64,000 bases of DNA from a virus, in the IMG/VR virus record IMGVR_UViG_3300021356_000007, positions 27,889 to 91,888 of that record; one strand, written 5' to 3'. Positions 11,889-39,093 of the stretch are shown here, one piece after another (the first letter of the stretch is position 1; the number at the start of each line of letters is the position of its first letter). The notes beneath the pieces are model-generated. The model did no database searches. It was given only the letters and a program-made list of their open reading frames with translations, and was not told where the DNA came from. A program made the translations under genes and the position numbers.

Positions 11889-11913
11889 AACTGGTTATAA
11901 AGACCCAACAAAG
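11889..11913 (+). promoter_or_regulatory. Archaeal-type promoter, upstream variant copy
   Basis: AACTGGTTATAAAGACCCAA followed by CAAAG. The AACTGGTTATAAA core is identical to the other copies at 15028, 19014, 25381, 30744 and 39069; the downstream part shows ACCC instead of AAAC. TTATAAA is a good archaeal TATA box and the AACTGG in front sits where a BRE would be. A GCCG-aaaa-CGGC hairpin follows at 11923-11934. This is the first of two promoters for the 12160 gene. Confidence 0.75.
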
Positions 11914-11980
11914 GAGATGTTCGCCGAAAACGGCAGTCAACAACCACCTCCCCTCCCCTCCTCGACACATGGGGTGGGGC

Positions 11981-12029
11981 AGTACACCCTCATGGTGTAC
12001 TACGGTGGTGTACTCGAATGGTTTCGAGT
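11981..12029 (+). promoter_or_regulatory. Two adjacent leader hairpins between duplicated promoters
   Basis: AGTACACC (11981-11988) pairs with GGTGTACT (11994-12001) over a CTCAT loop, and ACTCGAA (12012-12018) pairs with TTCGAGT (12023-12029) over a TGGT loop. Transcripts from the upstream promoter at 11889 would carry both; those from the promoter at 12083 would not. They may be regulatory or stabilising leader elements, or part of the origin. Confidence 0.45.
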
Positions 12030-12082
12030 GCATCAGGGTGGTTGTATATATCCTGCTAAATGATAACCGACTGACTGAACAG

Positions 12083-12107
12083 AACTGGTTATAAAAACCC
12101 AACAAAG
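12083..12107 (+). promoter_or_regulatory. Archaeal-type promoter, proximal variant copy
   Basis: AACTGGTTATAAAAACCCAA followed by CAAAG. It is a near repeat of the promoter at 11889, including a downstream GCCG-aaat-CGGC hairpin at 12117-12128, so the promoter-plus-hairpin unit has been duplicated. The TATA box lies about 70 bp before the ATG of the 12160 gene, leaving a short leader with an AAAAAGGAGAG ribosome binding site. Confidence 0.75.
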
Positions 12108-12159
12108 GATATGACTGCCGAAATCGGCAACCAAAACAAAACAAAAAGGAGAGATACAA

Positions 12160-12810
12160 ATGAGTAATAAACACACAATGGAACAACTGAAAGTAACAGG
12201 GGTAGCAATACCTGTGCAATTCAACGCTTGCACAGAGTTAATGAGGCAACATGTAAATGCCAAAGGTAGTGCGAAACTTGCGCTACCTATACAACCTGAC
12301 GCTTTTGAGAACGGTAGGCTTGAATGGGATGACAAGATGAACGACTTTACTAAGGCTGACATCCACAGAGGTCTTGCGGCTATCGTGAAACTGGGTCAAG
12401 AACTGAACATAACAAATGCAAACGGACTACCAACCGCAGGTAAGGCTGTCGGTTCAAAGGCTATCCTAAGCAGTTACCACACACCTACAAGAGGCAAGAA
12501 CATAGGCAAGAGATTCTTCAACATCTTGATTGTATGGCAGAAGATTAAGCAAGCAGAGAAAGCCAACGCTAACATGCAGGCTCTTGAGGTTGCTAAGAAA
12601 TTCGGTATGCAAGTCTATGTCGAAACAGTCACACTGAAAGACGGTTCGCACAGAGCATTCACTGACATCAAGAAAGCAATGGGTGCATATTGCAGACAAA
12701 ACTTTGGTAATGAATGGCACAATTCGCCTAACAAAAGATTGTATCAGGCTGAAGCAATGGGTGCTATCATGTCTGCTGATGACGAAAGAATCGTTCACCC
12801 ACAAGAGTGA
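12160..12810 (+). CDS. First rightward gene, unknown function, tandem promoters
   Basis: A 216-residue, slightly basic protein with no motif I recognise. The middle (SYHTPTRGKNIGKRFFNILI) and the C-terminal part (AMGAYCRQNFGNEWHNSPNK) look globular. It has a strong ribosome binding site (AAGGAGAG) and is served by two promoter copies, so high early expression is likely. The position beside the candidate origin makes an initiator, DNA-binding or host take-over role possible, but nothing in the sequence proves it. Confidence 0.75.
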   Translation: MSNKHTMEQLKVTGVAIPVQFNACTELMRQHVNAKGSAKLALPIQPDAFENGRLEWDDKMNDFTKADIHRGLAAIVKLGQELNITNANGLPTAGKAVGSKAILSSYHTPTRGKNIGKRFFNILIVWQKIKQAEKANANMQALEVAKKFGMQVYVETVTLKDGSHRAFTDIKKAMGAYCRQNFGNEWHNSPNKRLYQAEAMGAIMSADDERIVHPQE

Positions 12811-12835
12811 ACCTATCAAACTCATACAGAAGTAG

Positions 12836-13260
12836 TACGGCGTTATGCCGAGACCAACGATTCCCCAGCGGGGAGGGGTAGTAACAATATCCCCCGCATC
12901 ACATTCCACTGGAGAGAGAATGCTGACGGGCATGGTGGCGACTGAGGTGTAAGATACCTTATCTCGAAACATCTATCTGTAACACGACCAAAGAATTCGG
13001 TCAGTGTTGAAAACCGAGGACAACATACGCAAGTATCGAGTCGCCTGTTAGCAGACGGGAATGAACTAATCTCGTAGCGGTGAGAGATAATTGACCGCCG
13101 ACTGGGTGCGATGCCCAGTTATATTCGTGGTTGCTACCCTTCTTGGAAAATAAAGCCACACCCTCGGAGAGCCGTATGCAACCAGCATCCTCCACCTACC
13201 CACGGCATTTCATTATCACATTCCACCAGCCTCTTACCTGTAAGGTAATCGAGGCACTGC
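12836..13260 (+). ncRNA. Candidate large structured RNA
   Basis: This 610-bp gap has no credible gene but many phased hairpins: CGGC/GCCG (12838-12850), CCCC-agc-GGGG (12863-12873), CATTC/GAATG (12902-12922), AACACGACC/GGTC-A-GTGTT (12981-13008), ATAC-GCAA-GTAT with a GNRA tetraloop (13025-13036), ATCTC/GAGAT (13069-13088), ACTGGG/CCCAGT (13101-13119), GGTTGC/GCAACC (13129-13183) and GCCTCTTACC/GGTAA-tc-GAGGC (13229-13255). It is more GC-rich than the flanking sequence. It would be transcribed behind the highly expressed 12160 gene. It lacks features of tRNA, RNase P, SRP RNA or group I introns that I know. Strand is inferred from context. Confidence 0.6.
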
Positions 13261-13261
13261 T

Positions 13262-13400
13262 AAGAAGTAGTAAGAAATAGTATAGTAATAATACAATTAA
13301 TACAATATATACAACATACTACTTTACTTTATTATAATATTAGGGGCTTACCATATTGTTGTATATTATATTCCGAACATTGAATACATTGAATTAACCA
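13262..13400 (+). promoter_or_regulatory. Very AT-rich leader with dyad and TATA-like sequences
   Basis: About 140 bp that is almost entirely A and T, with ATATACAAC (13307-13315) and GTTGTATAT (13358-13366) as an inverted repeat around AGGGGCTTACC. TATATTATATT at about 13361-13373 could be a TATA box for the 13420 gene, about 50 bp from its ATG. Such a stretch next to a structured region could also be an unwinding element. The conserved AACTGG promoter is absent here. Confidence 0.4.
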
Positions 13401-13419
13401 TAAAAAGGAGACTGAAAGC

Positions 13420-14157
13420 ATGACGATAGCATTTGTGAAAGGACAAAGAGCAAGAGGAAAGAGACTGATACTAACTGGCGATGCAATAGTAAGACAGTTA
13501 CATGAACTAGCCGAGGATATAATCTACCATGATGTAGATGAATACAATAACTTGGGTGACGAATGCCGTGTGCCTCCTGACTATGCCGAGGCTTGTATGC
13601 TAGTAGACAATCTCAGGATAGTCACACAGAAGTTCCAAAAGATAACAGATAAGATTAGCAGGTGGGGCTATCAAAAATACTACGCTCAATCATACAAAGA
13701 AGGGAGTACCTTGAGAGAGATAGATGGCTTCGGACTTGAAGACTGGGAGTCCGAGTATCAAGAGAAAGCACACAGGTGCATGGGCAAAATACAGGAGAAG
13801 TTCGACACACTCATGGACACAATCAAGAACCTTGAGCCCAGTGACTTGCACGATTCTATTTCCTTTTTCGACCAAAGTTATCAAGCAAGTAGCGGGAGAT
13901 GGGAATACGAATCAACGAAAGTAGTCATTGTCAAAGGGTTCGATGACTTTGGTATCGAGGACAACAGAACACGCTACAAAGATATGACACTCAAAGAAAT
14001 GCATGACGCACAAGAGCAAGCGTACTGGGATAGCCTCTCCGATGCACAGAAGCAGAAGGAAGAGGAGTACGCTAAACCTGACATCACATACATGAGAGAG
14101 AACGGCTACACTTCCTTCGCATGTAATGACAACGGTACAATATCCTACTGGAGATGA
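13420..14157 (+). CDS. Unknown early protein, 245 residues
   Basis: The ATG follows AAAAAGGAG at good spacing. The N-terminus is basic (KGQRARGKRLILTGDAIVRQ), the rest acidic with many Tyr, Trp and Asp residues and predicted long helices around EKAHRCMGKIQEKFDTLMDT. No known family recognised. It opens a run of tightly packed plus-strand early genes. Confidence 0.75.
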   Translation: MTIAFVKGQRARGKRLILTGDAIVRQLHELAEDIIYHDVDEYNNLGDECRVPPDYAEACMLVDNLRIVTQKFQKITDKISRWGYQKYYAQSYKEGSTLREIDGFGLEDWESEYQEKAHRCMGKIQEKFDTLMDTIKNLEPSDLHDSISFFDQSYQASSGRWEYESTKVVIVKGFDDFGIEDNRTRYKDMTLKEMHDAQEQAYWDSLSDAQKQKEEEYAKPDITYMRENGYTSFACNDNGTISYWR

Positions 14158-14161
14158 TAAC

Positions 14162-14542
14162 ATGAGAACAAAAGCAGAATGGTTCGACCAACAACCAATG
14201 ATGAAAAAGCGGGTAGGGAATATTTCATATGAGATATGGGCTAATGGAACATTCGCTTGCACCGCACCTAATGGTGATAGGTTCAAGCATTACGATAGCG
14301 CAGAAGATTGGTTAGTCGCAAGAGGCATCACTAATGATGAAGAGTTAAGCGCAATGCAAAACGGTGAGAAAGAAGGATGGTCTTGCGACATGAACCGTTG
14401 GTTCGAGTTAATTGTATTCAAGGGTGAAGACAACTGTATGACAGAATTGTATTGTGATGATGTATTCTTTGAATGGGATAAAGAGTATGCAAGCACAGTC
14501 ATACACGAAGCAATCGAGAGAGATAAGGAGGTGAATGTATGA
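14162..14542 (+). CDS. Unknown small acidic protein
   Basis: A 126-residue protein starting MRTKAEWFDQQPMMKKR, with a GNISYEIWANGTFACTAPNG segment that looks like a small beta hairpin domain and an acidic helical C-terminus. The ATG at 14162 avoids overlap with the previous gene and has GGAGATGATAAC upstream. Stop overlaps the next start by 4 bp. Function unknown. Confidence 0.7.
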   Translation: MRTKAEWFDQQPMMKKRVGNISYEIWANGTFACTAPNGDRFKHYDSAEDWLVARGITNDEELSAMQNGEKEGWSCDMNRWFELIVFKGEDNCMTELYCDDVFFEWDKEYASTVIHEAIERDKEVNV

Positions 14543-14985
14543 ACAACAGTTGGCTAAGTCATAGTACTTGTAAGGTATGCAACCAAAGACTTGAAGCAAG
14601 CGGTCATCCCTACGGTGATGTATTCCTTTCATGCACATACTGTGGATGGTTCAGCGAGGAAGAGGATGGTGAATCCACATACCTCAACACCGAACCTACC
14701 ATGAAGATGTCAGTGGAAGTGATTGACCTCATGAACTATCTTCAATCACAGATGAAACACAACGACACTGTAAATGAAATTACAAGAGCAGTCATGGCTT
14801 GCTTGCGTACTAATGTGAACAAGGACTACCGCTTACAAATACAAATGTATGATGATGACGGTGAACTTTCATGGGAAGATTACAGTGAGAAAAGATTCGC
14901 TACTAAAGCACAAGCAATTGTGTGGAGAAATAAATACACAGAAGATGAACCATACAACTTCCGTGTACATGAGGTGATTGAATGA
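14539..14985 (+). CDS. Zinc-ribbon early protein
   Basis: A 148-residue protein with an N-terminal zinc ribbon, CKVCNQRL and CTYCGWF, followed by a helical stretch and a C-terminal beta-rich block (YRLQIQMYDDDGELSWEDYS). The start follows GGAGGTGAATGT. Likely a nucleic-acid or protein binding accessory factor; no family recognised. Last gene before the promoter at 15028. Confidence 0.7.
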   Translation: MNNSWLSHSTCKVCNQRLEASGHPYGDVFLSCTYCGWFSEEEDGESTYLNTEPTMKMSVEVIDLMNYLQSQMKHNDTVNEITRAVMACLRTNVNKDYRLQIQMYDDDGELSWEDYSEKRFATKAQAIVWRNKYTEDEPYNFRVHEVIE

Positions 14986-15027
14986 CGACCTCATCGAGTG
15001 CTACTAAGGAATCGAAGGACTGGATAG

Positions 15028-15052
15028 AACTGGTTATAAAGAAACAATAAAG
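15028..15052 (+). promoter_or_regulatory. Conserved early promoter copy
   Basis: AACTGGTTATAAAGAAACAA followed by TAAAG, identical across all 25 bp to the copies at 19014, 25381, 30744 and 39069. The TATA box lies about 40 bp before the ATG at 15074, with an expected start site near the end of the element. Confidence 0.85.
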
Positions 15053-15073
15053 AAGATGAACGGAGAAATTGAA

Positions 15074-15328
15074 ATGACAATAACAATTGAAGAAAGAAAA
15101 GCATTGATGAAAACTGACGAAGGAATACTATGCGAGGTACTGATAGACATACTGGATTCACTGGAGGGAGGCGACATCATTGAGGATGCGACCACTCCAT
15201 TCGAAGCAGGTATCATACACACAATCAGTACCTTAACCAAAGCACTACTCGAATCAAGACTTAGGAATCTCCAAGTCCGTAAGGAAATGGATGACATCAT
15301 TAGGAACAAAACAAACACAGAGGAATGA
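15074..15328 (+). CDS. Small acidic early protein
   Basis: 84 residues from the ATG at 15074, which has CGGAGAAATTGAA in front; the same GGAGA-ATTGAAATG arrangement precedes the first gene after the promoter at 19014. The ATG at 15056 lies close to the expected transcription start and is less likely. The product is helical and acidic, ending NTEE. Function unknown. Confidence 0.65.
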   Translation: MTITIEERKALMKTDEGILCEVLIDILDSLEGGDIIEDATTPFEAGIIHTISTLTKALLESRLRNLQVRKEMDDIIRNKTNTEE

Positions 15329-15330
15329 AC

Positions 15331-15768
15331 ATGAAGATTAAAACAATTTACACAGTAAAACAAAAGCGAGTCGTTGAAGACTATTACAGAGTCGAAGCAA
15401 CGAGTAAGGCTGAGGCACTTCGCAAGTTCGAAGATGGCGAACACGGTTATGACTACGAGTCTTACACTGACAAAGAGTACAACCCAAGTGTCGAGAAACT
15501 ACACGACATACTTGAGTGTCCTAACAAAGGTGAGGCATGGACAAACATACCTCTCAGTCAAATCGCTGGTATTGATTTCACTAAGTATGGCTGGGGTCTT
15601 GACTGGCACTACAATGGTAAGTGTCAAGGTGAGAGAACTGACAGCCAAACGCACTGCCACAATTGTAAAAGTTCTATGCTCAGGGGACTCAGATTACTTA
15701 CACTTGAGGAAAAGAAATACCTCAAGAGAACTTACTCATTCAATGAGGACTTAAACACAGAGGAATGA
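15331..15768 (+). CDS. Unknown protein with C-terminal Cys/His cluster
   Basis: About 145 residues. It starts with a beta-rich YTVKQKRVVEDYYRVEATSK block followed by AEALRKFEDGE, a pattern often seen in small phage proteins, and later has CQGERTDSQTHCHNCKSS, a possible metal site. The second ATG at 15331 fits the ribosome binding spacing of AGAGGAATGAACATG better than the overlapping ATG at 15325. Confidence 0.65.
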   Translation: MKIKTIYTVKQKRVVEDYYRVEATSKAEALRKFEDGEHGYDYESYTDKEYNPSVEKLHDILECPNKGEAWTNIPLSQIAGIDFTKYGWGLDWHYNGKCQGERTDSQTHCHNCKSSMLRGLRLLTLEEKKYLKRTYSFNEDLNTEE

Positions 15769-15770
15769 AC

Positions 15771-15950
15771 ATGGAAGAAACAACAGAAGAACTAGCAATA
15801 TATGTGCTGAGATGGCTGGATAGAAACGACCTCAGCATGACTAACCTGAGAGAGATGATGGACTTGATGGCTAACTACAACAGAACACTTGAGGAAGCAA
15901 GAGACAGGCAGAAGGAGAGACAATACCAACACGGTGATACATATGAATGA
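15771..15950 (+). CDS. Very small helical protein
   Basis: Around 59 residues, probably two helices, with no motif. It uses the same AGAGGAATGAACATG junction as the preceding gene, again favouring the second ATG. It overlaps the next gene start by 8 bp. Unknown function. Confidence 0.55.
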   Translation: MEETTEELAIYVLRWLDRNDLSMTNLREMMDLMANYNRTLEEARDRQKERQYQHGDTYE

Positions 15951-16380
15951 TATAAAATACACAGAGACAAACCAAGCAGATACACTGAACAGACTGGACT
16001 ACCTCTTGCAGGTAGTCAAAGACAGACAAGCCATGCAGAGAGGTGACGAAGGATGGGAGTACGGCTTCGATAGTGATGCAGAAATCACCATCAGTACAGC
16101 GTACGATGGGGCTCTCATCAGACCATCTAAGACTATGGCTAAGCAATGGATTAAAGATTCATGGAACAGTATGAGAAGAATGTACGACCCTGATAACTTA
16201 CCCGATTACATAGAGTCTGTATCTCCTGAGTTCGACCTTGAACTTACGAAGTACGGTACGATTTGGTTGAGACCTCGTGTGAGAACAGAAAGGTCAGAAC
16301 AAAACAAAGCGTACCTTGCTGAAGCACAGCAAGCGAGAGAAGAAATTTATTCAAAGCACTACGGAGATGATGAAGAATGA
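15943..16380 (+). CDS. Unknown early protein
   Basis: 145 residues from the ATG at 15943, ending in the acidic SKHYGDDEE. This GDDEE ending recurs in the next gene. It has a helical N-terminus (DTLNRLDYLLQVVKDRQAM) and a mixed C-terminal half. No family recognised; position before ArdA suggests the same early, host-facing group. Confidence 0.65.
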   Translation: MNDIKYTETNQADTLNRLDYLLQVVKDRQAMQRGDEGWEYGFDSDAEITISTAYDGALIRPSKTMAKQWIKDSWNSMRRMYDPDNLPDYIESVSPEFDLELTKYGTIWLRPRVRTERSEQNKAYLAEAQQAREEIYSKHYGDDEE

Positions 16381-16547
16381 ATGACGCAGATTGGATAATA
16401 TTATCACAGGCTGAAATAGATTACATTGTTAATTGTATGTGGTATTTACAATCCTATAAAGTAAATAGAGAAGAATTAGCGAAGAAAATAACGAGCCTAC
16501 CTGCTGGTAGAAAGAGGCTACAATACTGGGGAGATGATGAAGAATGA
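16377..16547 (+). CDS. 56-residue protein upstream of ArdA
   Basis: The frame from the ATG at 16377 reads MNDADWIILSQAEIDYIVNC to QYWGDDEE. It overlaps both neighbours by ATGA. The GGAGATGATGAAGA end doubles as ribosome binding region for the ArdA gene. AT-rich compared with its neighbours. Function unknown. Confidence 0.6.
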   Translation: MNDADWIILSQAEIDYIVNCMWYLQSYKVNREELAKKITSLPAGRKRLQYWGDDEE

Positions 16548-17077
16548 CAGAAGAGATACACTTCGAGAAAGAAGCATGTGTACAATGCTTAGGTTGCTAC
16601 AACGAAGGGAGACTGAACTTCAAGTGGGTCAACGCTGAGTACATACAAGAGAACATCCAAGACCTGAACCCATGCAAGCGAGCCGACCATGAAGAATACA
16701 TGATGGCTGATACTAACTTTGGACTGACCCACAAGATGGGTGAGTACCCTGACTGGGAAGTAGTAGCACAGGTGATGGAACTGATTGAAGAACACGGAGA
16801 GCCGTTCAAAGTGTGGCTCACTTACTCAGACACAGACCACTTGGATGTCAGCGAACTTGCTGACATATTCATGGAAGAATATCGTGGCGAAATGTCTGAG
16901 AAAGATTACGCATACGAATACATAAATTCCATTTACTCACTTTCTGACCTCGACTACATCATTACAGGCAACATCGACTACGAGGGTGTGTGGATTGACC
17001 TCAGTCACGGACAACACTGGAGTCACACAACTGGCTCACCTAACTATAACACTTACATATTTGAGAGGCGATACTAA
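16544..17077 (+). CDS. ardA: ArdA-type antirestriction protein
   Basis: A 177-residue, strongly acidic protein. ArdA proteins mimic bent B-form DNA and inhibit type I restriction enzymes. Seen here: an N-terminal CLGCYNEGRLNFKWV block matching the ArdA CLAAYNxGRLxGxW motif, DTNFGLTHKMGEYPDWEVVAQ matching the FGG-L-EYE segment, VMELIEEHGEPFKVWL, EEYRGEMSEKDYAYEY matching xxYxGEYxSxEDYA, NIDYEGVWIDL matching YIDYEAYARDL, and YIFERRY at the end. Extra Cys residues (CVQCLGC) near the start are unusual for the family. It lies in the early plus-strand block, as expected for protection right after DNA entry. Confidence 0.85.
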   Translation: MTEEIHFEKEACVQCLGCYNEGRLNFKWVNAEYIQENIQDLNPCKRADHEEYMMADTNFGLTHKMGEYPDWEVVAQVMELIEEHGEPFKVWLTYSDTDHLDVSELADIFMEEYRGEMSEKDYAYEYINSIYSLSDLDYIITGNIDYEGVWIDLSHGQHWSHTTGSPNYNTYIFERRY

Positions 17078-17654: not shown

Positions 17655-17663
17655 GGTGATACT

Positions 17664-19009: not shown

Positions 19010-19013
19010 ACTG

Positions 19014-19038
19014 AACTGGTTATAAAGAAACAATAAAG
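19014..19038 (+). promoter_or_regulatory. Conserved early promoter copy
   Basis: AACTGGTTATAAAGAAACAA followed by TAAAG, identical to the other full copies. It directs the operon starting with the nonapeptide-repeat gene at 19056, with only about 17 bp between the end of the element and the ATG. Confidence 0.85.
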
Positions 19039-19055
19039 AGAATGGAGAGATTGAA

Positions 19056-19706
19056 ATGATGAAGAAATGGATTAAGAGAATGATTACAGAACTACTGGAT
19101 GAGAAAGAAACTATTGAGCAAGTCGCAGAGCATATCAGTGACAAGGTTACTGATGCTTGTGTTGCTTCTATGAGTGCACAAGATGTGGCTCATGAGATGG
19201 ACTACTCAGAAGTTGCCGAACACATTAGTACTAGCGACATCGCTAGTGACTTGGCATACGACATTGATGCTGGAGAAGTTGCAGAAAACATATCACTGGA
19301 TGACCTAGCATACCACTTAGACAACGATGAGATAGCAGACTACCTTGACAAAGCAGAGGTAGCAGAAAGTATCAGACTTGACGACTTGGCTGGTGCAATT
19401 GATTACAGGAACTTAGCAGATTACATAGACTCAGACGACATCGAAGTTGACTTGCATGACTTACAAAGTCACATTGACATGAGTGAATTGGGTGAGTACA
19501 CTGCCGACCACATTGATTACGAGTCAGTGGTTGGTGCTATGGATGACACCGCACTTTACAATCAATTGAGAGATGCGTTTGAGACTGACATCGAGCAACT
19601 TCACATCGAACTAAATAAGAAAATGAAATCACTCATTCACTGCTTCGAGTCTATAGAACTAGCAGTGACAGAGATGAGAATGACACTAGGGAGTGAAGAG
19701 GAATGA
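19056..19706 (+). CDS. Acidic nonapeptide-repeat protein
   Basis: 216 residues. Between residues 43 and 127 there are nine units with the pattern [DEN]-[VIL]-A-x-x-[ILM]-x-x-x, spaced exactly 9 residues apart (43, 52, 61, then 74, 83, 92, 101, 110, 119), for example EVAEHISTS, EVAENISLD, DLAYHLDND, EIADYLDKA, NLADYIDSD; an isolated unit begins at 22. The repeat region is very acidic, while the N-terminus (MMKKWIKRMI) is basic and the C-terminus is helical. It is the first gene after a conserved promoter. A rod-like DNA mimic or a solenoid binding surface are possible; no known family matches. Confidence 0.8.
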   Translation: MMKKWIKRMITELLDEKETIEQVAEHISDKVTDACVASMSAQDVAHEMDYSEVAEHISTSDIASDLAYDIDAGEVAENISLDDLAYHLDNDEIADYLDKAEVAESIRLDDLAGAIDYRNLADYIDSDDIEVDLHDLQSHIDMSELGEYTADHIDYESVVGAMDDTALYNQLRDAFETDIEQLHIELNKKMKSLIHCFESIELAVTEMRMTLGSEEE

Positions 19707-19774: not shown

Positions 19775-19776
19775 AT

Positions 19777-19935: not shown

Positions 19936-19937
19936 AC

Positions 19938-21270: not shown

Positions 21271-21272
21271 AC

Positions 21273-25380: not shown

Positions 25381-25405
25381 AACTGGTTATAAAGAAACAA
25401 TAAAG
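25381..25405 (+). promoter_or_regulatory. Conserved early promoter copy
   Basis: AACTGGTTATAAAGAAACAA followed by TAAAG, identical to the other full copies; the element begins 12 bp after the preceding stop codon. It serves the operon that leads to the SNF2 helicase. Confidence 0.85.
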
Positions 25406-25421
25406 ATAATGAGGGAGACAA

Positions 25422-25811
25422 ATGACAACGACAAAGAATACACTTAGAAAAGAACTCCGTAAGATACAGGAGAAGATGGAACTACTATCGGATTTCGAGA
25501 GTTACAATTTCGAACACAAGACTTGCGAAAACAACGAACATGAATGGGCAAACCCTGAAGTCATATCGCACGAGGCAGGTTGTATCAAAACAAGTGATAC
25601 TTGCAGACTTTGTGGCGTGACGACCATCAGGATATACAACCTAGACAAAGTCGTATACGAAGATGACTACGAGGAATTCAGAGACGAATCCCTCGACCAA
25701 GAAACCACAGAAACAGATGACAAACCTACACTTCCACTGGAGAAAACCAGCCAAAGCGATGGCACATACAAAGTGGATGTTGCTAGTATTTTAGGGAGAG
25801 ATGAAGAATGA
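25422..25811 (+). CDS. Zinc-binding acidic early protein
   Basis: 129 residues. A basic helical start (TLRKELRKIQEKMELLSDF) is followed by CENNEHEW ... HEAGC and CRLCGVTT, a possible zinc ribbon, then a very acidic tail (DDYEEFRDESLDQETTETDD). First gene of its operon with GAGGGAGACAA in front. Unknown function. Confidence 0.65.
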   Translation: MTTTKNTLRKELRKIQEKMELLSDFESYNFEHKTCENNEHEWANPEVISHEAGCIKTSDTCRLCGVTTIRIYNLDKVVYEDDYEEFRDESLDQETTETDDKPTLPLEKTSQSDGTYKVDVASILGRDEE

Positions 25812-29601: not shown

Positions 29602-29931
29602 ATGGGTATCGGAGTAGAATATATTCAAGACCACAACCAAGAATACTGGTACGACAATCTCTTAGGAATGCTCAAGATGGTAGACCAAATTATCAGAATC
29701 TACGGTGATGACGAAGAGACATTCAGAGAGCGTATCAGTGACTACATGTGGGAATTAGTCGTCAGGAATCTTGACGCTGATACCAAAGCAAGACATGACG
29801 GCGAGTTCGAGAGGTGCGGTACATTCCCTAAGTTCAAGGGCGAGCCGGGCATCAGTCATCTGATTGCTGAGGCTTACCCTAGAGAGAATCCACTCAAGCC
29901 TCAAGACCTAGAAGACCAAGAATCCGATTGA
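29602..29931 (+). CDS. Last gene of the early block
   Basis: 109 residues, MGIGVEYIQDHNQEYWYDNL onward, acidic. It converges on the 29894-30694 minus-strand gene and overlaps it by 38 bp, so the two transcripts are antisense at their ends. No family recognised. Confidence 0.6.
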   Translation: MGIGVEYIQDHNQEYWYDNLLGMLKMVDQIIRIYGDDEETFRERISDYMWELVVRNLDADTKARHDGEFERCGTFPKFKGEPGISHLIAEAYPRENPLKPQDLEDQESD

Positions 29932-30694
29932 GTTCGGTTTGCTGGTTACTGACACGGTCAGACAAATCTAGTTCTTGTTGTGCAGTCATTGGTACTTCAG
30001 AATCGAACACTGGGTCAACGAAGTCTTCAAATGACTGTGCATCTATTTGTCTAGCGAATGGCTGTAACTGAGCGTCAGTTAATTCATAGTCAATCCCATA
30101 CCTGCGAGGGTCTTTTCTAGCCAACCTAGAAGCCATCTGAGCGACTGGGTCTTTTGGGTGAGCAGCACCATAGAACATAGGGTCATTGAATAAAGCGTGT
30201 CCTTCTATGGGTCTACCAGTAACCTGACTCGCAGTCAATGCCGTGGGTCGGTCTACTGCCATCCAGTTAGGAGGCTTTGCATCTGCTACGCCGGTAGCCT
30301 CTGCTAGGGGTATGGCATGGTGTATGGATGTAGCGAGTGTTCTACCTCTGTCTGAGTCAGCCTTTGGATTACCTGATTCGGCAAATGGTCTGCCTCTTAT
30401 CTGTTGAGATAAAATAGGCGTACCACGACCTGACATAAATTGTTGAGCCTCCGGTGGCAATTCATAAGTCTGCGCTATTGGTGTCTGTTCAACAAAGATG
30501 TCCGGCATCAAACGAGCCAACTGGCTCGCAAGGTACATGTCACTCAATGTATTACCGTGACCTACCTTAGTAACATCAGGATTACCTTCTTGACCGAACA
30601 CCATCTGATTCATCCCCTGCCCTATCCGAACACCTTCGGAGGGTTGGAAGACAGCCTTGAGCAATAACCATGCTCTCTCAAATGGGCTGTTCAT
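29894..30694 (-). CDS. Lone AW-tagged late-type protein, kinase-like features uncertain
   Basis: About 266 residues from ATG 30694: MNSPFERAWLLLKAVFQPSE carries the tag of the left late operon. The following GNPDVTKVGHGNTLSDMYLA and ADAKPPNWMAVDRP weakly recall nucleotide-binding and catalytic-loop blocks of kinase-like folds, but the usual HxD motif is not clear. It is the only minus-strand gene between 11.4 and 53.8 kb and is flanked by an early gene and a divergent promoter. It is probably a late virion protein that became relocated; this is inference. Confidence 0.7.
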   Translation of the reverse strand: MNSPFERAWLLLKAVFQPSEGVRIGQGMNQMVFGQEGNPDVTKVGHGNTLSDMYLASQLARLMPDIFVEQTPIAQTYELPPEAQQFMSGRGTPILSQQIRGRPFAESGNPKADSDRGRTLATSIHHAIPLAEATGVADAKPPNWMAVDRPTALTASQVTGRPIEGHALFNDPMFYGAAHPKDPVAQMASRLARKDPRRYGIDYELTDAQLQPFARQIDAQSFEDFVDPVFDSEVPMTAQQELDLSDRVSNQQTELNRILGLLGLEA

Positions 30695-30708
30695 GCACAT
30701 CGCAAGGC

Positions 30709-30725: not shown

Positions 30726-30743
30726 TTTCCGCTTACCAAGCCA

Positions 30744-30768
30744 AACTGGTTATAAAGAAACAATAAAG
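30744..30768 (+). promoter_or_regulatory. Conserved promoter copy heading the replication arm
   Basis: AACTGGTTATAAAGAAACAA followed by TAAAG, full match to the other copies. It lies about 60 bp upstream of the DUF932-like gene, a longer leader than for the other copies. Confidence 0.85.
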
Positions 30769-30831
30769 GAAATGGCTGGGACTTTGGAAAAAACCACAAA
30801 AACAAATAAGAAATGAAAACGAGGAGATAAT

Positions 30832-32343
30832 ATGGAAGACATAGTATTGATAGGAAAAGTAACGCAAAGCACACCGAACACAGTAGAAGTGGAGTACCCT
30901 TCTATTGTGGGAATCAACGCCGTAAGAGTACCAAGAACAATGGTAGCAAGATTCGAAAGAATCAGCGGTGGTAGAGTGGCAGTGCTGGTAAGAACAGACG
31001 AAACAGAAAAAGGCAAGAACTTGTATCAGCATATTGGTATCGACCAAGCACCATTGCATGTAACAGATGAGCACATGAGCATCGTTTCAGCACTGGAATA
31101 CAACGAACCAATCCCAGCAGGACTAACACAAGACACAGCAGAGGAGTCAGTGATGTGGGGCGCATCAGCCCCAGTCAACAATCAACCTCTCATCACCATT
31201 GCTAACAATGATGGTACAGAAGAATTTGTGATTGCTAATGAGGCATTCGATGCAATGCTTTTCTCAGGCGGTAGAAAGAAAGTTGAGAGCATCAACTGGG
31301 ACTTCACACCATCTAGGAAGCCAGCATTTGTAATGCACGAAGAAGGACAATCAGGTACAACCGTAGCAAGAGTCAATGACAATGCTGGTAAACCTGTTGC
31401 CTACCACATCTTCAATCCAACTTACGCTAATGAATCAAGACCAGCAGGTGCTTACCTTGGTACATTCAGTGGCTCATATTACCCAATGCCATACAGAGAT
31501 GGCTACCAACCAATCATGGACATGTCTGCTGAAAGAGGCTGGCCTTGTCAAGTGATTGCTTGGGATGAAGGTAAGAGGTCTGCTCTGTTCTGTGATGTTA
31601 CAAGCAGTGTAGATTGGGACAAAGCAACCAAGGGATTCGGCAATAGGTGGTCGGGTCTTGTTAACACTGGTGACTACAGAATCGGTATCGCTGTGTACAA
31701 CAGCCTTGACGGTTCATCATCATTCAAAGTACAAGCGGTAGCGATGAGACTTACATGTTCTAACGGTATGTTCATGGGAGACTCTGCTACTCTAATCAAC
31801 CTCAAGCACACAGTCAACACACTGGGTAACTATGACTTTGAGAAGTTGGCTGGTAGAATTATGGATGTCATTGAGACCGCAGCACAAGAAATTGTTGTCA
31901 CTGAATCAATGCGTGATGTCGAAATTAACAGAGATACCTTTGAGAAACTCATGACTATCTGTGAGAAGAAAGGACTAATCACCAAGCCTGTCATCAAAAG
32001 AGATGACACTGGCAATGTATCTGCTGTCACTAGAGGACACATGTGGAGACTGATGGGACAAGGATGGACTAACCCAAGCGAGCCTTGGGTTGCAGTCGAT
32101 GAACAAGACACTGGTTCTCTTTACCATGTATACAATATCATGACTGGTGCTATCACCCACAAACCTGTGTGGACTGATGGGGCAACCAAACTAGAAGGAA
32201 GTAAACTTAACTTCAGCACACTCACTGACAGACTGAGCAAGGTTCACAAAATCTTTGGTGACATCGCAAACAAGTCAATCAACGGTACACCTGTTGAGGA
32301 ACAACTTGAGAAGGTCAAGATGTTCAGTGAGATACTATACTGA
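30832..32343 (+). CDS. DUF932-like phage/plasmid protein
   Basis: 503 residues with GGAGATAAT at the start. The segment FKVQAVAMRLTCSNGMFMGD followed by INLKHTVNTL matches the RLVCxNGM ... H pattern of DUF932 (TIGR03299-like) proteins, which are abundant in phages and plasmids and of unknown function. The N-terminal 80 residues form a separate small beta-rich domain (VTQSTPNTVEVEYPSIVGIN). First gene of the operon, so probably well expressed. Family call is moderate. Confidence 0.7.
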   Translation: MEDIVLIGKVTQSTPNTVEVEYPSIVGINAVRVPRTMVARFERISGGRVAVLVRTDETEKGKNLYQHIGIDQAPLHVTDEHMSIVSALEYNEPIPAGLTQDTAEESVMWGASAPVNNQPLITIANNDGTEEFVIANEAFDAMLFSGGRKKVESINWDFTPSRKPAFVMHEEGQSGTTVARVNDNAGKPVAYHIFNPTYANESRPAGAYLGTFSGSYYPMPYRDGYQPIMDMSAERGWPCQVIAWDEGKRSALFCDVTSSVDWDKATKGFGNRWSGLVNTGDYRIGIAVYNSLDGSSSFKVQAVAMRLTCSNGMFMGDSATLINLKHTVNTLGNYDFEKLAGRIMDVIETAAQEIVVTESMRDVEINRDTFEKLMTICEKKGLITKPVIKRDDTGNVSAVTRGHMWRLMGQGWTNPSEPWVAVDEQDTGSLYHVYNIMTGAITHKPVWTDGATKLEGSKLNFSTLTDRLSKVHKIFGDIANKSINGTPVEEQLEKVKMFSEILY

Positions 32344-32352
32344 GGAGATAAA

Positions 32353-33753: not shown

Positions 33754-33764
33754 GAGGAATAGAT

Positions 33765-33974: not shown

Positions 33975-34480
33975 ACATATTTGTATTAGACAAAGACCCT
34001 GTCAAGGCAGCGAAGTACATTGACGACCAAAGAATCAGCAAGATGATTATTGAGTCAGGACAAATGATGCGAGCAGCACTGGGTAGACATGGCATGAGTG
34101 AAGAAGACTGCCGACAGTTCGGCATCCTGACTAAGAGTGGTAACCCTTGGCGTGTCACTCACAAGAATCATCCTTGTACACTGTGGGCTGGTGAAACTAG
34201 AATGAACTTCATGTGGCTTGCTACTCATGCCCTTGCTATGTGCAAAGAGTTTGAGTATCGTTATCTCAAAGAACACGCATGTCGTAAACCAATCATGCAC
34301 ATGATTGACTACATGGACATGTTCATTCCTGAAGGTGACTACACACCTTTCGCTCAGGCTATGCCTGACGAGTACAAGGATGACGATGCAGTATTTGCTT
34401 ATCGTAGATACTACAAGAGCAAGGACAACATCAGATACAGAAAAACAGATGTCCCTACTTGGTGGGAGGTGACGGCGTGA
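33971..34480 (+). CDS. Conserved phage protein of unknown function
   Basis: 169 residues from ATG 33971. MNIFVLDKDPVKAAKYIDDQ, SKMIIESGQMM, KNHPCTLWAGETRMNFMWL, FAQAMPDEYKDDDAVFAYRR form a set of blocks that I recognise from a protein family found in many tailed phages and usually left without function. Here it ends WWEVTA, the first of five copies of a repeated gene junction. Role unknown; the conserved His, Cys and Trp suggest an enzyme. Confidence 0.75.
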   Translation: MNIFVLDKDPVKAAKYIDDQRISKMIIESGQMMRAALGRHGMSEEDCRQFGILTKSGNPWRVTHKNHPCTLWAGETRMNFMWLATHALAMCKEFEYRYLKEHACRKPIMHMIDYMDMFIPEGDYTPFAQAMPDEYKDDDAVFAYRRYYKSKDNIRYRKTDVPTWWEVTA

Positions 34481-34632
34481 GTGAATGCTTTGATGACGAG
34501 TATTGGGAACACCATGCAAAAGAGCAATTGCTGAAATGCAAAGGTTGTACTGGTTGCCCTATTACTTACTATCCTCTTACTACAATAGTAGGCTATGGTT
34601 TAGAGTGTGAATGCGTGGAGGTGACGGCGTGA
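34477..34632 (+). CDS. 51-residue Cys-rich protein with GTG start
   Basis: GTG at 34477 in the junction repeat. The product has KCKGCTGCP and LECECVEVTA, five Cys that could bind zinc or iron-sulfur. Cassette 1 of the array. Confidence 0.6.
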   Translation: MSECFDDEYWEHHAKEQLLKCKGCTGCPITYYPLTTIVGYGLECECVEVTA

Positions 34633-34838
34633 AGGATATTGTAGAATACAGAATCCATTATGGTGAGGATGGAGACTCACACGACATTCTGTATTATGAG
34701 GGTAAGGATTGGCGCAAGTGGAAACAGCACATTGGCGAAGAAGGAGTCCAATGGATTGAGAGAGTGGTTGACACTTTCTGTTCCAACGGGGATTTGATTA
34801 GTTCGGAGTATGAAACCCTGTGGGAGGTGACGGCGTGA
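34629..34838 (+). CDS. Cassette-array protein, GTG start
   Basis: 69 residues from GTG 34629; an ATG at 34611 lies upstream but before the ribosome binding site, so GTG is preferred. KDIVEYRIHYGEDGDSHDIL onward, acidic and beta-rich, ending WEVTA. Cassette 2. Confidence 0.6.
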   Translation: MKDIVEYRIHYGEDGDSHDILYYEGKDWRKWKQHIGEEGVQWIERVVDTFCSNGDLISSEYETLWEVTA

Positions 34839-34966
34839 ATCATGAATACAGAATAAAGCGAATTAGAAATATCATCAAGCGGTTTGAAGAAAAGGAAGGT
34901 GGCAACATTGGTGACCTCGTGGACGCTTGGGAAAGAATCAAAGAACAAGTGGAGGTGACGGAGTGA
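34835..34966 (+). CDS. Cassette-array 43-residue protein, GTG start
   Basis: GTG at 34835 starts NHEYRIKRIRNIIKRFEEKE, a basic helix, and ends VEVTE. Cassette 3. Likely real because the junction context is fully kept. Confidence 0.5.
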   Translation: MNHEYRIKRIRNIIKRFEEKEGGNIGDLVDAWERIKEQVEVTE

Positions 34967-35139
34967 AGTGCATACCAAAGAAAAACAGTCGTGCAATTTC
35001 CTATTCAAGCCAAGTTGATTGGTTGCTGGACATTGACTGCGCTACTTGTAGGAGTCGGACATCAATGTGTAGGGTCAAGGTGACAATGGATGAAATGGAA
35101 GATTGGATTGCTGAACGAGGCGTGGAGGTGACGGCATGA
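34963..35139 (+). CDS. Cassette-array zinc-type protein, GTG start
   Basis: 58 residues from GTG 34963. CIPKKNSRAISY, then CATCRSRTSMC, which could coordinate zinc, and an acidic helix ending VEVTA. Cassette 4. Confidence 0.55.
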   Translation: MKCIPKKNSRAISYSSQVDWLLDIDCATCRSRTSMCRVKVTMDEMEDWIAERGVEVTA

Positions 35140-35297
35140 AGTGTTGTGAGAAGATAGATGATGATTGGATAAATGGTGATATGTGGCATGATAATCACAC
35201 TACATTTGGGTTTAGTGGCAGGATGCTTTTAGTGACTTACCAATGCCCTCACTGTGGTAAAAGAAGTGAGAGAGATTTCTTAGAGGTGAATGAGTGA
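35136..35297 (+). CDS. Cassette-array zinc-ribbon protein
   Basis: 53 residues from ATG 35136: MKCCEKIDDDWINGDMWHDN and CPHCGKRSERDFLEVNE. CC and CPHC make a zinc ribbon. Its end, GAGGTGAATGAGTGA, supplies the binding site and GTG start of the methyltransferase. Confidence 0.6.
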   Translation: MKCCEKIDDDWINGDMWHDNHTTFGFSGRMLLVTYQCPHCGKRSERDFLEVNE

Positions 35298-36073
35298 AGA
35301 GCATTCTAAGATATGTCGGTGGTAAGAGTAGGGCAGTCAAGCACATCCTACCTTACCTTGAGGGCGCAGACACATTGTACTCTCCCTTCTTTGGGGGAGG
35401 CTCAATCGAGTTTGCCTTCTCCGAGAAAGGTAAGGTCATCGGTTGTGACTTGTACAAACCAGTCGCAATGTTTTGGCAACAGGTACTCAGAGACCCTGAC
35501 CTTGTAGCAGACGAGGTACAGAAATTTCACCCTCTACCAAAGTGTGACTTTGTTTCTTTACAGCATCTGTTACCTCACATGGAAATACCAGTCAACATAG
35601 CATGTTCCTTTTATGTCCTGAACAGGGCATCATTTTCAGGCTCAACAAATTCAGGTGGTATGTCACCTGAACATCCAAGATTTAATCAAGCGTCTATTGA
35701 CAGATTGAGAGAATTCTCAGCACCAAATGTAGAGGTGCATCACAGTGACGCATTCGTTTTCCTCAAAGGTTTGATGGGGCAGAATCCATCAGGCAAAGTG
35801 ATTTACCTTGACCCACCTTACATGATTAAGAACAACTTGTACGGTAACAAAGGAGACATGCACAGAAACTTCGACCATGAAAAGTTAGTCGAGGTCGTCA
35901 AAGGATTAGATGCACTGGGTTGGAAGATAGTCATGTCTTACAACAATAACGAGGATATTGAGAAGTGGTATAGTGACTTTGAAATCATCCCGCTTGAATG
36001 GAAGTATGGGATGAATAGTAGTAAAGAATCAAATGAGATTTTGATAGTAAGTAAAAGAGAGGTGAATGAATGA
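35294..36073 (+). CDS. DNA N6-adenine methyltransferase, Dam/D12 class
   Basis: 259 residues from GTG 35294. RYVGGKSRAVKHILPYL is the SAM-binding start typical of D12-class enzymes, FFGGGSIEFAF is the FxGxG motif, NRASFSGSTNSGG is the variable-loop block and VIYLDPPYM holds the catalytic DPPY. These enzymes methylate adenine at N6, usually in GATC-like sites. In a virus this would protect its DNA from host restriction, matching the ArdA gene, or mark DNA for replication or packaging. No cognate endonuclease gene is seen beside it. Confidence 0.9.
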   Translation: MKSILRYVGGKSRAVKHILPYLEGADTLYSPFFGGGSIEFAFSEKGKVIGCDLYKPVAMFWQQVLRDPDLVADEVQKFHPLPKCDFVSLQHLLPHMEIPVNIACSFYVLNRASFSGSTNSGGMSPEHPRFNQASIDRLREFSAPNVEVHHSDAFVFLKGLMGQNPSGKVIYLDPPYMIKNNLYGNKGDMHRNFDHEKLVEVVKGLDALGWKIVMSYNNNEDIEKWYSDFEIIPLEWKYGMNSSKESNEILIVSKREVNE

Positions 36074-36243
36074 AAGAAAAAACAGTCTGCGTATGTGGTT
36101 CAACCACTTTCAATATGTACATGCCAACCGAACACGGAGAGGAAGATATATTCCTATGCACTGAATGTGGTAGGATTTACAATCGAACCGTACTAGGTTA
36201 CTGGTCGGATGAAACAAAGAAAAAGGAGAAGGTGAAAGAATGA
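36070..36243 (+). CDS. 57-residue zinc-ribbon protein
   Basis: From ATG 36070, MKEKTVCVCGSTTFNMYMPT and CTECGRIYNRTVLGYW. CVCG and CTECG form a zinc ribbon. Coupled to both neighbours by ATGA overlap. Confidence 0.65.
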   Translation: MKEKTVCVCGSTTFNMYMPTEHGEEDIFLCTECGRIYNRTVLGYWSDETKKKEKVKE

Positions 36244-36551
36244 ATAGGAAAGATGTAATTTGGAGTAATGAGATAAAGGACTTTGCCGCTTATCTCTTTG
36301 GCTTTACAGGAGTGTCTAAGCAAGCGGCTGACTATCTATGGGGTAGAGCAGTTGGCTGGTACAAACGAGGACTTACAGGTGTAAGTGAAGAAGGTTTAGA
36401 ACAAGAAATTGCTGATGACATGATGTCAACAAAGGAATACAAAGACATAGTGAAATTGTTACACTGCTTGTCAGCGTATTTTGGGCACGACCATCCGAAA
36501 GAATTTGTTGATTATTTCAAAGAGTACTATTTAGTAGAGGTGAAAGTATGA
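36240..36551 (+). CDS. Small helical protein
   Basis: 103 residues, helical; FTGVSKQAADYLWGRAVGWY and KEYKDIVKLLHCLSAYFG. Preceded by GGAGAAGGTGAAAGA. No family recognised. Confidence 0.6.
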   Translation: MNRKDVIWSNEIKDFAAYLFGFTGVSKQAADYLWGRAVGWYKRGLTGVSEEGLEQEIADDMMSTKEYKDIVKLLHCLSAYFGHDHPKEFVDYFKEYYLVEVKV

Positions 36552-36793
36552 AGAAAGAATTTTGGGAAAACAGATATGAAGAATTGATGAATGCAGTGAA
36601 GCAAGGTGCTGATATAGCGTTCTGTGACAAATGTGACGAATGGTACGACTATGAGCAAGGTAGGCAATGTGGTTGCTGCCCCATCTGTGTAGGTGACTGG
36701 GATGGTGACATGGATGGTAACATATGTAGGAGTTGCTTAGAAGAAATGACGGCAGCCCCTGCGACCATGAGTGCTTGGGAGAGAAACGCATGA
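36548..36793 (+). CDS. Zinc-binding small protein
   Basis: 81 residues with CDKCDEWYDY, CGCCPIC and CRSCLEEM, eight Cys likely binding two zinc ions in a RING- or ribbon-like arrangement. Function unknown. Confidence 0.65.
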   Translation: MKKEFWENRYEELMNAVKQGADIAFCDKCDEWYDYEQGRQCGCCPICVGDWDGDMDGNICRSCLEEMTAAPATMSAWERNA

Positions 36794-37041
36794 TAACTGC
36801 CGAGTTCGCTAACGGTAAGGCTCAGGCTAACCTCATCAAGGGTGAGAAAGAAACATACCATGTAACTGTATATTCTGATGCACCTAAACACGATTATCAA
36901 TGTATCATGGACACAATCTCTTGGGGAAGCAAACAGGGCTTTGCTATTATGAGTACAAGAGAAAAGCGTATTGTCTCGGTCACGCCTGAGTACAAAGGTA
37001 AGTCAGTAAAACAATTCAGATTCGTAAAGGTAGATGAGTGA
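36790..37041 (+). CDS. Small beta-rich protein
   Basis: 83 residues from ATG 36790. MITAEFANGKAQANLIKGEK, beta-rich throughout and ending RFVKVDE. No motif. Confidence 0.6.
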   Translation: MITAEFANGKAQANLIKGEKETYHVTVYSDAPKHDYQCIMDTISWGSKQGFAIMSTREKRIVSVTPEYKGKSVKQFRFVKVDE

Positions 37042-37042
37042 C

Positions 37043-37318
37043 ATGAGAGGATTCAGTCAGATAATCAAGTGGAGAGTTCCTGCTACTACTTTCAGGTGGA
37101 AAGGTAAGGCAGAAGTCATCATGAGTGTGGCTGACCCTAAAGGTGACTCTGAGCCTAAAATAGACATTAGAGTTAGAAGAACAATTGAGCATCCACAAGG
37201 AGAGGGCTATACAAAAGAGGGAGTGCGCCTGAGTCTTGAAGATGCGAGTTCACTAGCAAAGGCAATCCAACACTCCCTCAAAGAACTGAGGGAAACAGAT
37301 GACACGCAAGAAACTTGA
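37043..37318 (+). CDS. Small beta-rich protein
   Basis: 91 residues from ATG 37043, preferred for spacing over 37034. RGFSQIIKWRVPATTFRWKG onward, beta strands then a helix SLAKAIQHSLKELRE. Overlaps the next gene by 20 bp. Confidence 0.55.
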   Translation: MRGFSQIIKWRVPATTFRWKGKAEVIMSVADPKGDSEPKIDIRVRRTIEHPQGEGYTKEGVRLSLEDASSLAKAIQHSLKELRETDDTQET

Positions 37319-37610
37319 TTATGCTCTGTTAGAGGAAGCACACAAGTTGGCTTTCGACTCACTGGACAAAGATGAAATGTACAGACCGAGAAAAATCTCA
37401 ATTAGAATAACTGAGGCTTACTCGGTTTTACTCAAAAACTGCTACAGAGAAGGCAATCAATACGGCAATAGGAAGCAACTGAGAATAAAAAGAAAGTGGG
37501 CTAGAAAACTAGGCTGGGATTCTCGTGTTTTCAGAGACCATGAAATCATTAAGGGTAAGATATATCCTTGTGAAAACACCAAGTATTTCTACATAGGAGA
37601 GGAAGAGTGA
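37299..37610 (+). CDS. Small basic protein
   Basis: 103 residues. Basic with RKQLRIKRKWARKLGWDSRV, so nucleic-acid contact is possible. Ends IGEEE, with GGAGAGGAAGAGTG as the binding site for the next gene. Confidence 0.55.
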   Translation: MTRKKLDYALLEEAHKLAFDSLDKDEMYRPRKISIRITEAYSVLLKNCYREGNQYGNRKQLRIKRKWARKLGWDSRVFRDHEIIKGKIYPCENTKYFYIGEEE

Positions 37611-39064
37611 TGCTACTAGCAGAGGCTGCTACTATCTCAGAGAGTCTGAGAACTCTGTACAGTAAGTACATGACAGACGCTGAAGAGAAGTCTAAGCATT
37701 TCAGAAAGATGCTAGACCTAATCAGGCAAGCAGTCAACAACTCAATTGATGATAGTTCTCAGTTGATTGACATGTACTATCCTGAGTATTCGAGATACCC
37801 AAGGCAGTTCATTTCAATCAGAGAGATAAGAGACGATGTCTGTCGTAAACTATCCATCTCCCCGCTAGTGTGGGATGAGTCATTGGCAGGCAAACCGATA
37901 GTACCTCTGTTGGCTCTTGAGTCTCCTGAATATGGAGGTCAGGGACTGACAGTCAAGCAAGCGTTCAATCTCATGGCTAGGATAAGAGACGAAGGCTTTC
38001 TTCAAGTTGCCAGCAAAATGAATGAGAGAGAAGCCCTACTCTTTTGGGGCAGGGCTACAGACGAGCGACCTCCTATGCCAGTCAATCGTTTTCTACAGAT
38101 AGTGTCGTACACTACAGAGAAGGGGGCTCAGAGCCTCCAATCAATCAATATCATGTTACAGACCATGACTCCCTCTGAGATTATACAGAGGCTGTACTCT
38201 GAGAAAGAGGACATGGAAGTTCGCACTATGCAACCGGGACAGGCTTTCCTTGGCTCGGTCTATAGAGCATGGGACAAGTTAACAACTCCTGATGATGTCT
38301 ATGCAGATGTCATTGAAGGAGACAGGAGATTCCTACACATCACTGAATTCCCAGTAGGGACATTCAAGGGTGTGTTTTACAACCGTCACAAGCAAATGAT
38401 GGGCAAGTCACATGAGCCCATCTACACAGATAGTGAGGCTATCTTTGAGGTAGAAGTTGACGGTAACCAAGTCAAGTATGTTACTGATGTATATGCAGTC
38501 GATGACGATTGGAATGTATACAAAGAGAACTACAAGGACAGGCAAGATAAACTTGCCAAACTGAGACTGGCTGTGCCTACCAAGTCAGGTAAATTCATAC
38601 CTGCCTCTACGGATTTCAGCCATTTGCTTGGGACTTTGGAAGACAACCAAAGGCTCAGATTCGTAAGCACTGGTGCTATCAAATTGGGTAGCAACGGTGG
38701 GTGGGCTATCCTCAAGGATGCCTTTCACATCAATCTACTTGTCACTGCTGTCAAGCGTGACCGTGAGTTCGAGACACACATTAGAGTGTCTGCTATGGAT
38801 GGGTTCGAAACCTATGAAGTAGGACAGATACAGTTAACTGTAGAAGTCGCTCAGCACATGCGTCAGAGGTTGGCATTACAAGGTGTACTCGCAGGACAGG
38901 ACTGGTTACCTGTCGATGAGTATGCTATGGTGGTGGTAGTTGAACTCGCAGAGTTTTCTCTCAGTGACCTTTCTCTTGAGAAAGTGGAACTGAAATACCT
39001 TGATGACGACTTGGGCTACAGTGATGTAACTCAATTAACTGACCTGATAGAAATGAGCAACTGA
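37610..39064 (+). CDS. Large unknown protein upstream of the clamp loader
   Basis: 484 residues from ATG 37610. The N-terminal quarter is helical (LRTLYSKYMTDAEEKSKHFR); the middle has QPGQAFLGSVYRAWDKLTTP, and the C-terminal half is beta-rich with VPTKSGKFIPASTDFSHLLG and VVVVELAEFSLSDLSLEKVE. The last block distantly recalls the C-terminal strand of ATP-dependent DNA ligases, but I see no KxDG nucleotidyl motif, so I do not call ligase. It is the last gene before the promoter at 39069. Structure prediction would help most here. Confidence 0.65.
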   Translation: MLLAEAATISESLRTLYSKYMTDAEEKSKHFRKMLDLIRQAVNNSIDDSSQLIDMYYPEYSRYPRQFISIREIRDDVCRKLSISPLVWDESLAGKPIVPLLALESPEYGGQGLTVKQAFNLMARIRDEGFLQVASKMNEREALLFWGRATDERPPMPVNRFLQIVSYTTEKGAQSLQSINIMLQTMTPSEIIQRLYSEKEDMEVRTMQPGQAFLGSVYRAWDKLTTPDDVYADVIEGDRRFLHITEFPVGTFKGVFYNRHKQMMGKSHEPIYTDSEAIFEVEVDGNQVKYVTDVYAVDDDWNVYKENYKDRQDKLAKLRLAVPTKSGKFIPASTDFSHLLGTLEDNQRLRFVSTGAIKLGSNGGWAILKDAFHINLLVTAVKRDREFETHIRVSAMDGFETYEVGQIQLTVEVAQHMRQRLALQGVLAGQDWLPVDEYAMVVVVELAEFSLSDLSLEKVELKYLDDDLGYSDVTQLTDLIEMSN

Positions 39065-39068
39065 GAGA

Positions 39069-39093
39069 AACTGGTTATAAAGAAACAATAAAG
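39069..39093 (+). promoter_or_regulatory. Conserved promoter copy for replication genes
   Basis: AACTGGTTATAAAGAAACAA followed by TAAAG, full match, four bases after the preceding stop codon. It controls the clamp loader, RecA-like and downstream genes. Confidence 0.85.

Follow-up and report, generated by a model that had tools for sequence, protein, structure and literature searches.

A 25-base element built around a TATAAA box is repeated on the plus strand ahead of successive operons of an archaeal virus replication module, within a stretch of 64,000 nucleotides (the window) that corresponds to bases 27889-91888 of a 91,888-base virus record. The element is near-identical at all its sites within one genome, and it differs in sequence between related genomes at the same sites. 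It is, on balance, probably the core promoter of early or middle replication-module operons, extended by a virus-specific element that would be read by a virus-specific factor; the timing is taken from the functions of the genes that follow.

Copies of the element and the virus record

Matches to the element with up to three mismatches (≤3) were collected from the window and from the entire record. Exactly seven were found in the window, all of them on the plus strand, against a shuffled expectation of 0.01: five identical copies at 15028, 19014, 25381, 30744 and 39069 (0 mismatches each) and two variants at 11889 (2 mismatches) and 12083 (3 mismatches). The entire record gave the same seven on the plus strand, 0 on the minus strand and 0 for the reversed pattern. 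With a 31-column weight matrix the seven sites scored 44.8-51.5 bits, and the next-best site in the record scored -0.1. The mismatch search and the weight matrix thus confirmed the copies listed in the original prediction, an earlier reading of the window, including their restriction to one strand.

All five exact copies are located in noncoding gaps of the plus-strand module, each directly before a run of genes. This module is 96% coding (1,480 noncoding bases out of 40,920), and the chance of all five falling in gaps is about 2e-8. The minus-strand virion genes have no copy ahead of any of them. The statement that each copy stands before an operon held for the five exact copies; both variants lie in an origin-like region to the left of the first gene, where the copy at 11889 is followed by a structured noncoding stretch and only the copy at 12083 directly precedes a gene. 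An exact 20-mer of the motif was present in no other IMG/VR contig, and an exact 21-mer had one match only in the scanned species genomes, in an AT-rich noncoding stretch of a lake bacterium, which was judged to be a chance match.

Magrovirales are tailed viruses of Poseidoniales with 90-110-kb genomes that encode a family B DNA polymerase (PolB), an archaeal primase and a PD-(D/E)XK nuclease, and they carry their replication and virion modules on opposite strands (PMC12999244). The record of 91.9 kb contains PolB, the PD-(D/E)XK nuclease, an RFC-like protein, a thermosome and virion genes on the opposite strand, and from this match to the published layout it is classed as magrovirus-like (order Magrovirales). 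Its host is probably a member of the Marine Group II archaea (Poseidoniales), as assigned from the same resemblance. Products of the plus-strand module are an RFC-like clamp-loader ATPase, PolB, the PD-(D/E)XK nuclease, an ERCC4-type nuclease, a group II chaperonin (the thermosome), an SNF2-type helicase and a DUF932 protein, together with a primase-like protein (its match is weak and does not reach the Pfam cut-off) and the ArdA antirestriction protein, whose gene (16544-17077) belongs to the operon behind the copy at 15028. The minus-strand genes of the record include those for the major head protein, prohead protease, portal and terminase. Between the PolB of the window and its counterparts in haloarchaeal tailed viruses the identity is 23-25%, a distant relationship.

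Anatomy of the site

Offsets were counted from the first A of AACTGG. In all seven copies TATAAA occupies offsets 8-13, AATAAAG (or AACAAAG) offsets 19-25 and ATG offsets 29-31, so that the conservation of the 25-mer extends to NNNATG. The TATA box is upstream of genes and on their strand in each of the seven, as in archaeal promoters. Four of the five exact copies are followed by a Shine-Dalgarno-like sequence and the next start codon within about 25 bases of offset 25; for the copy at 30744 the start codon comes about 60 bases beyond the motif. The flanks of the copies are unrelated to one another, identity ending at the motif edges, and the core motif has no dyad symmetry.

The bases directly before the TATA box are AACTGG in the window and AAGTCC, TTCCGG or CTTCTT in relatives, which does not follow the usual purine-rich pattern of a B recognition element (BRE); in several relatives they are the less constant part of the element. 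Conservation beyond TATA box and BRE had been claimed originally, and the extra bases are near-identical within each genome.

Repeat families of related viruses

With the polymerase and the RFC-like protein as queries, 88 loci were obtained, several of them from fragments; longer records were read in pieces. A motif search in related viruses had been proposed originally. Most relatives carry a repeated element of the same layout and of different sequence, in families of 2-13 strong copies that keep to one strand in each record (Table 1). No such family was detected by these repeat-search methods in G001, G013, G015, G025 and G026.

Table 1. Promoter copies and the foldable stretch of the window, and repeated families of related viruses.
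Feature	Sequence	Position	Strand	Remarks
Variant copy, outermost	TTATAAAGACCCAACAAAG	11889..11919	+	inverted repeat GCCGAAAACGGC next, then structured GC-rich sequence
Noncoding sequence with a strong predicted fold, behind the outermost copy		11920..12055	+	GC-rich; RNA fold -67 kcal/mol, z -6.5
Variant copy	TTATAAAAACCCAACAAAG	12083..12113	+	followed by inverted repeat TGCCGAAATCGGCA; before gene 12160-12810
Exact copy	AACTGGTTATAAAGAAACAATAAAG + NNNATG	15028..15058	+	before gene 15074-15328 (start taken as 15074) and the ArdA-holding operon
Exact copy		19014..19044	+	before gene 19056-19706
Exact copy		25381..25411	+	before gene 25422-25811 and the SNF2-type helicase operon
Exact copy		30744..30774	+	before DUF932 gene 30832-32343; leader about 60 nt
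Exact copy		39069..39099	+	before the replication operon RFC-like/PolB/nuclease/primase-like/thermosome (39113-53730)
Family of G003	TATATAAAGAACTAACAAAG			7 copies
Family of G007	TTATAAAAGACCAATAAAG			5 copies
Family of G021	TTATAAATAAACAAGAGA-type			7 copies
Family of G006 and G020	TTWTAAACTGACAATAAAG
Family of G012	TTTAAATAGAAACAAGAAAG			3 copies
Family of G017 and G018	TTATAAAGAATCAAAACAATAG
Family of G009 and G010	TTATAAAGGTCCTAAGAAG
Family of G027	CTACTTAAAGCAGYATYAA			13 copies at ≤3 mismatches

Identity within genomes and divergence between them

A comparison that depends less on how the families were found was made in the 28 records in which neither the RFC start nor the DUF932 start is missing: the regions upstream of the two genes were compared for their best ungapped match over 26 bases. 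The RFC of 23 of these records is at least 63% identical to that of the window; they represent about 11 lineages, some records being overlapping pieces of one contig. In 22 of the 23 the two promoters agree at 24-26 of 26 positions, and the matched stretch is the promoter itself. The exception, L063, has its second copy further upstream, ahead of the preceding small gene.

Eight independent genomes were then aligned on the TATA box. The mean agreement was 24.0/26 within a genome versus 14.8/26 between orthologous promoters, and in 0 of 56 comparisons did the orthologous promoter of another genome match a promoter as well as the second promoter of its own genome did. The observed sum of similarities was reached by one of 40,320 pairings, the true one. 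When best windows were compared between genomes instead, the mean was 16.9 and the maximum 25; certain lineage pairs are therefore close. By column, TATAAA is common to nearly all genomes and the AAYAAAG tract is largely common, and the five columns after TATAAA agree at 87-100% within genomes versus 21-42% between them.

Taken from these alignments, the pattern is one of concerted evolution, in which dispersed sites are alike in one genome and change between genomes at the same sites. Recent copying of the DNA by a mobile repeat or by gene conversion, with no regulatory meaning, would account for the exact identity of the five copies. It is hardly credible and already contradicted, in that identity ends at the motif edges with unrelated flanks, the positions are conserved in relatives whose sequences differ, and every exact copy is in noncoding sequence of the same strand. 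Given the unrelated flanks and the conserved positions, the pattern is most simply explained by selection through a common reader, and it points to co-evolution of the promoter with some factor recognising it. The earlier proposal that the extra bases may be bound by a factor gains indirect support from their near-identity within a genome and their difference between genomes.

Proposed mechanism and alternative explanations

The favoured reading would work as follows. The TATAAA box would be bound by the host TATA-binding protein (TBP) and transcription factor B (TFB), and transcription by host RNA polymerase would begin some 20-27 bases further downstream, at a point probably close to the conserved ATG (offsets 29-31) or a few bases beyond it. 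Mapped TATA boxes of halovirus HF2 begin at -24 to -28 (PMC8707807); with that spacing, the start in the window would fall at about offset 31-35, at or just past the ATG. The flanking bases, above all the five after TATAAA, would form an additional recognition element for a virus-specific factor, either a DNA-binding activator encoded by the virus or something that modifies the host initiation complex, and this factor would switch on the dispersed replication operons together, apart from the virion genes of the opposite strand. This reading is preferred because what the genomes share of the element is compatible with recognition by host TBP, TFB and polymerase, and the part peculiar to each genome points to a virus-specific reader; further support is drawn from the replication genes and antirestriction ArdA behind the copies, with the virion genes on the other strand. 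That a repeated viral promoter precedes successive operons, the central claim of the original prediction, is supported by position, strand, TATA core, the Shine-Dalgarno-like sequences and start codons downstream, and the arrangement in relatives.

Six of the 11 gaps of at least 20 bases in the plus-strand module contain no copy, so the motif is not ahead of every operon, and other promoters or read-through must exist. Several observations weigh against the favoured reading. In distant records (RFC about 55% identical) the two upstream regions agree at 15-17 of 26 positions, which is background, and the motif is absent before RFC. The RFC promoters of relatives place the start codon 28-38 bases from TATAAA, and their Shine-Dalgarno-like sequences begin 17-29 bases after the TATA box; with such tight spacing a canonical start would remove many Shine-Dalgarno sequences and leave a near-zero leader in several relatives. 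Either very short leaders or a TATA-to-start spacing shorter than usual would have to be assumed. Viral TBP or TFB was found in none of 30 records searched; single-subunit RNA polymerase gave no PF00940 match in 19 virus records, in a search whose control genomes gave none either; and no clear helix-turn-helix or ribbon-helix-helix regulator was seen among 70 plus-module proteins with Pfam or PHROGs. With no regulator found, the reader is hypothetical; a repressor, or a host factor that is not the same in every host, would be alternatives.

The split into replication and virion modules bears out part of what had been called a clean early/late division. The timing is a putative component of it: several plus-strand gaps lack the motif, so the motif class could be middle instead of immediate-early.

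A more specific form of the preferred reading is tentative and, as we see it, rather doubtful: each magrovirus lineage might encode its own initiation factor, or modifier of a host factor, that reads the five bases after TATAAA, with factor and promoters co-evolving as in T7-like phages. If true, this would be an orthogonal promoter system in archaeal viruses that lack a polymerase of their own.

An ordinary TATA promoter of host type, needing no further factor, is an unlikely explanation. The identity within a genome would then reflect adaptation to a single optimal sequence for the TBP, TFB and polymerase of its host, and the differences between viruses would reflect different hosts. The TATAAA box occurs in all the viruses, their hosts may be different Poseidoniales, and early promoters of SIRV2 resemble strong host promoters (PMC11065993). 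This explanation is strained by near-identity over about 25 bases, including bases after the TATA box for which no comparably strict reading by the core factors is known, and by the scanned species genomes, in which the single exact 21-mer was chance-like, in a scan that was not aimed at hosts.

Distinctly unlikely is the possibility that the copies are operators overlapping ordinary promoters, through which a viral repressor would silence all motif-led operons together. Aca8 has been proposed to act in this way in SIRV2 (PMC11065993), and GCCG-N3/4-CGGC inverted repeats follow the outermost copies at a similar offset in the window and in the distant G027. The lack of dyad symmetry in the core motif and the absence of the inverted repeat from the other copies speak against a repressor. 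The inverted repeats themselves lie at 11923-11934 and 12117-12128 in the window and near 9447 in G027, about offset 35 from a promoter copy, and might act as an operator or form a hairpin at the 5' end of the RNA.

T7-like promoters consist of an AT-rich block, a variable specificity block and a second AT-rich block followed by the start. The genome-specific block between two shared AT-rich blocks has the same layout, and with a start near AAAG (offset 22-25) the RNA would still contain the Shine-Dalgarno sequences as well as the inverted repeat next to the promoter. An unrecognised viral RNA polymerase or replacement initiation factor starting there is very improbable all the same: PF00940 gave no match (in the search without a positive control mentioned above), no archaeal virus is known to have an RNA polymerase gene (PMC5569661), and an HF2-like start at -24 to -28 falls close enough to the conserved ATG to make the hypothesis unnecessary in the window.

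Comparison with known systems

The class I and class II intergenic repeats of HF2 (Haloferacalesvirus), which in HF2 and its relatives were demonstrated to be promoters by reporter assays and primer extension (PMC8707807), are judged to be the closest known case. Both are found in tailed archaeal viruses, have a TATA core, and keep position and orientation in relatives; the class I repeats of HF2 are in an early/middle module with replication genes, and the repeats of the window are likewise confined to the intergenic gaps of one module and specific in orientation. Unlike the element of the window, which is 25-31 bp long and divergent between related viruses, HF2 class I repeats are 56-58 bp long, built from alpha, beta and gamma blocks and conserved across the genus; a repeat of this type is not present here, and HF2 IR4 differs in sequence and layout. 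Promoter activity is known by assay for the HF2 repeats and is predicted from sequence here.

Promoters of SIRV1 and SIRV2 carry a GTC element after the TATA box that was proposed to be virus-specific (Kessler 2004, as cited in PMC5569661). They share with the present element the TATA core and a putative virus-specific element just downstream, but belong to a rudivirus and comprise three bases, whereas at least five bases change from virus to virus here. Virus-specific regulatory sequences have also been described around early promoters of SIRV2 and other Sulfolobales viruses (PMC11065993), where the core promoter is near-identical within one virus and the surrounding sequence differs between viruses, as in the present case; there, mostly single anti-defence genes are concerned, whereas long replication operons, one of them with ArdA, are concerned here.

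T7-type phages have a short exact promoter that is repeated on one strand before successive operons, with a specificity block that varies between phages. The one-strand exact repeat and the block that varies between viruses are found here as well; T7, however, encodes its own RNA polymerase, and none was found in the present search, which lacked a positive control.

Repeated viral promoters are thus known as such; neither the combination of identity within a genome with divergence between lineages nor any promoter or transcription programme of magroviruses or Poseidoniales viruses was found described in the searchable literature. Magroviruses are abundant ocean viruses of uncultured archaea. 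With a near-identical promoter set of its own in each lineage, the existence of a virus-specific factor in archaea becomes testable. Such a set marks co-regulated operons in many uncultured genomes, and could help to link contigs to one virus or to find anti-defence genes behind the same promoter.

Origin-like region and further observations

The origin-like region between the divergent modules (11400-11860) contains six GTCTAAAC iterons, an TCTATAGA palindrome and an ATATGGGTG element at the GC-skew minimum; parts of it are shared with G006, G009, G017, G018 and G027. As judged from folding, the stretch at 11920-12055 may belong to the origin, serve as a leader or encode a noncoding RNA, and GC-rich foldable sequence is present at the same place in G009 and G018 (z -2.7 and -3.6). 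About 590 noncoding bases at 12811-13400 are also foldable (z -3.4); they had no convincing relative among the records compared, and no credible Rfam match was obtained at 12.7-13.5 kb, nor any match in an Rfam scan of 8-45 kb. The first gene, at 12160, had no relatives in the viral contigs searched. A stem-loop considered for the DUF932 leader was rejected, as folding gave no support.

The first minus-strand gene beside the origin-like region (10498-11355) encodes an HMGL-like (pyruvate carboxyltransferase-type) protein, an unusual metabolic gene for a virus. Two minus-strand open reading frames are without a Pfam match, one of 2194 codons at 57325-63909 and one of 268 codons at 29894-30700, the latter within the plus-strand module and just upstream of the copy at 30744. 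A row of tiny overlapping open reading frames at 34477-35297, with nearly identical junctions of the GTGGAGGTGACGGCGTGA type, looks like a cassette of exchangeable small genes, and the same type of junction sequence recurs in many relatives.

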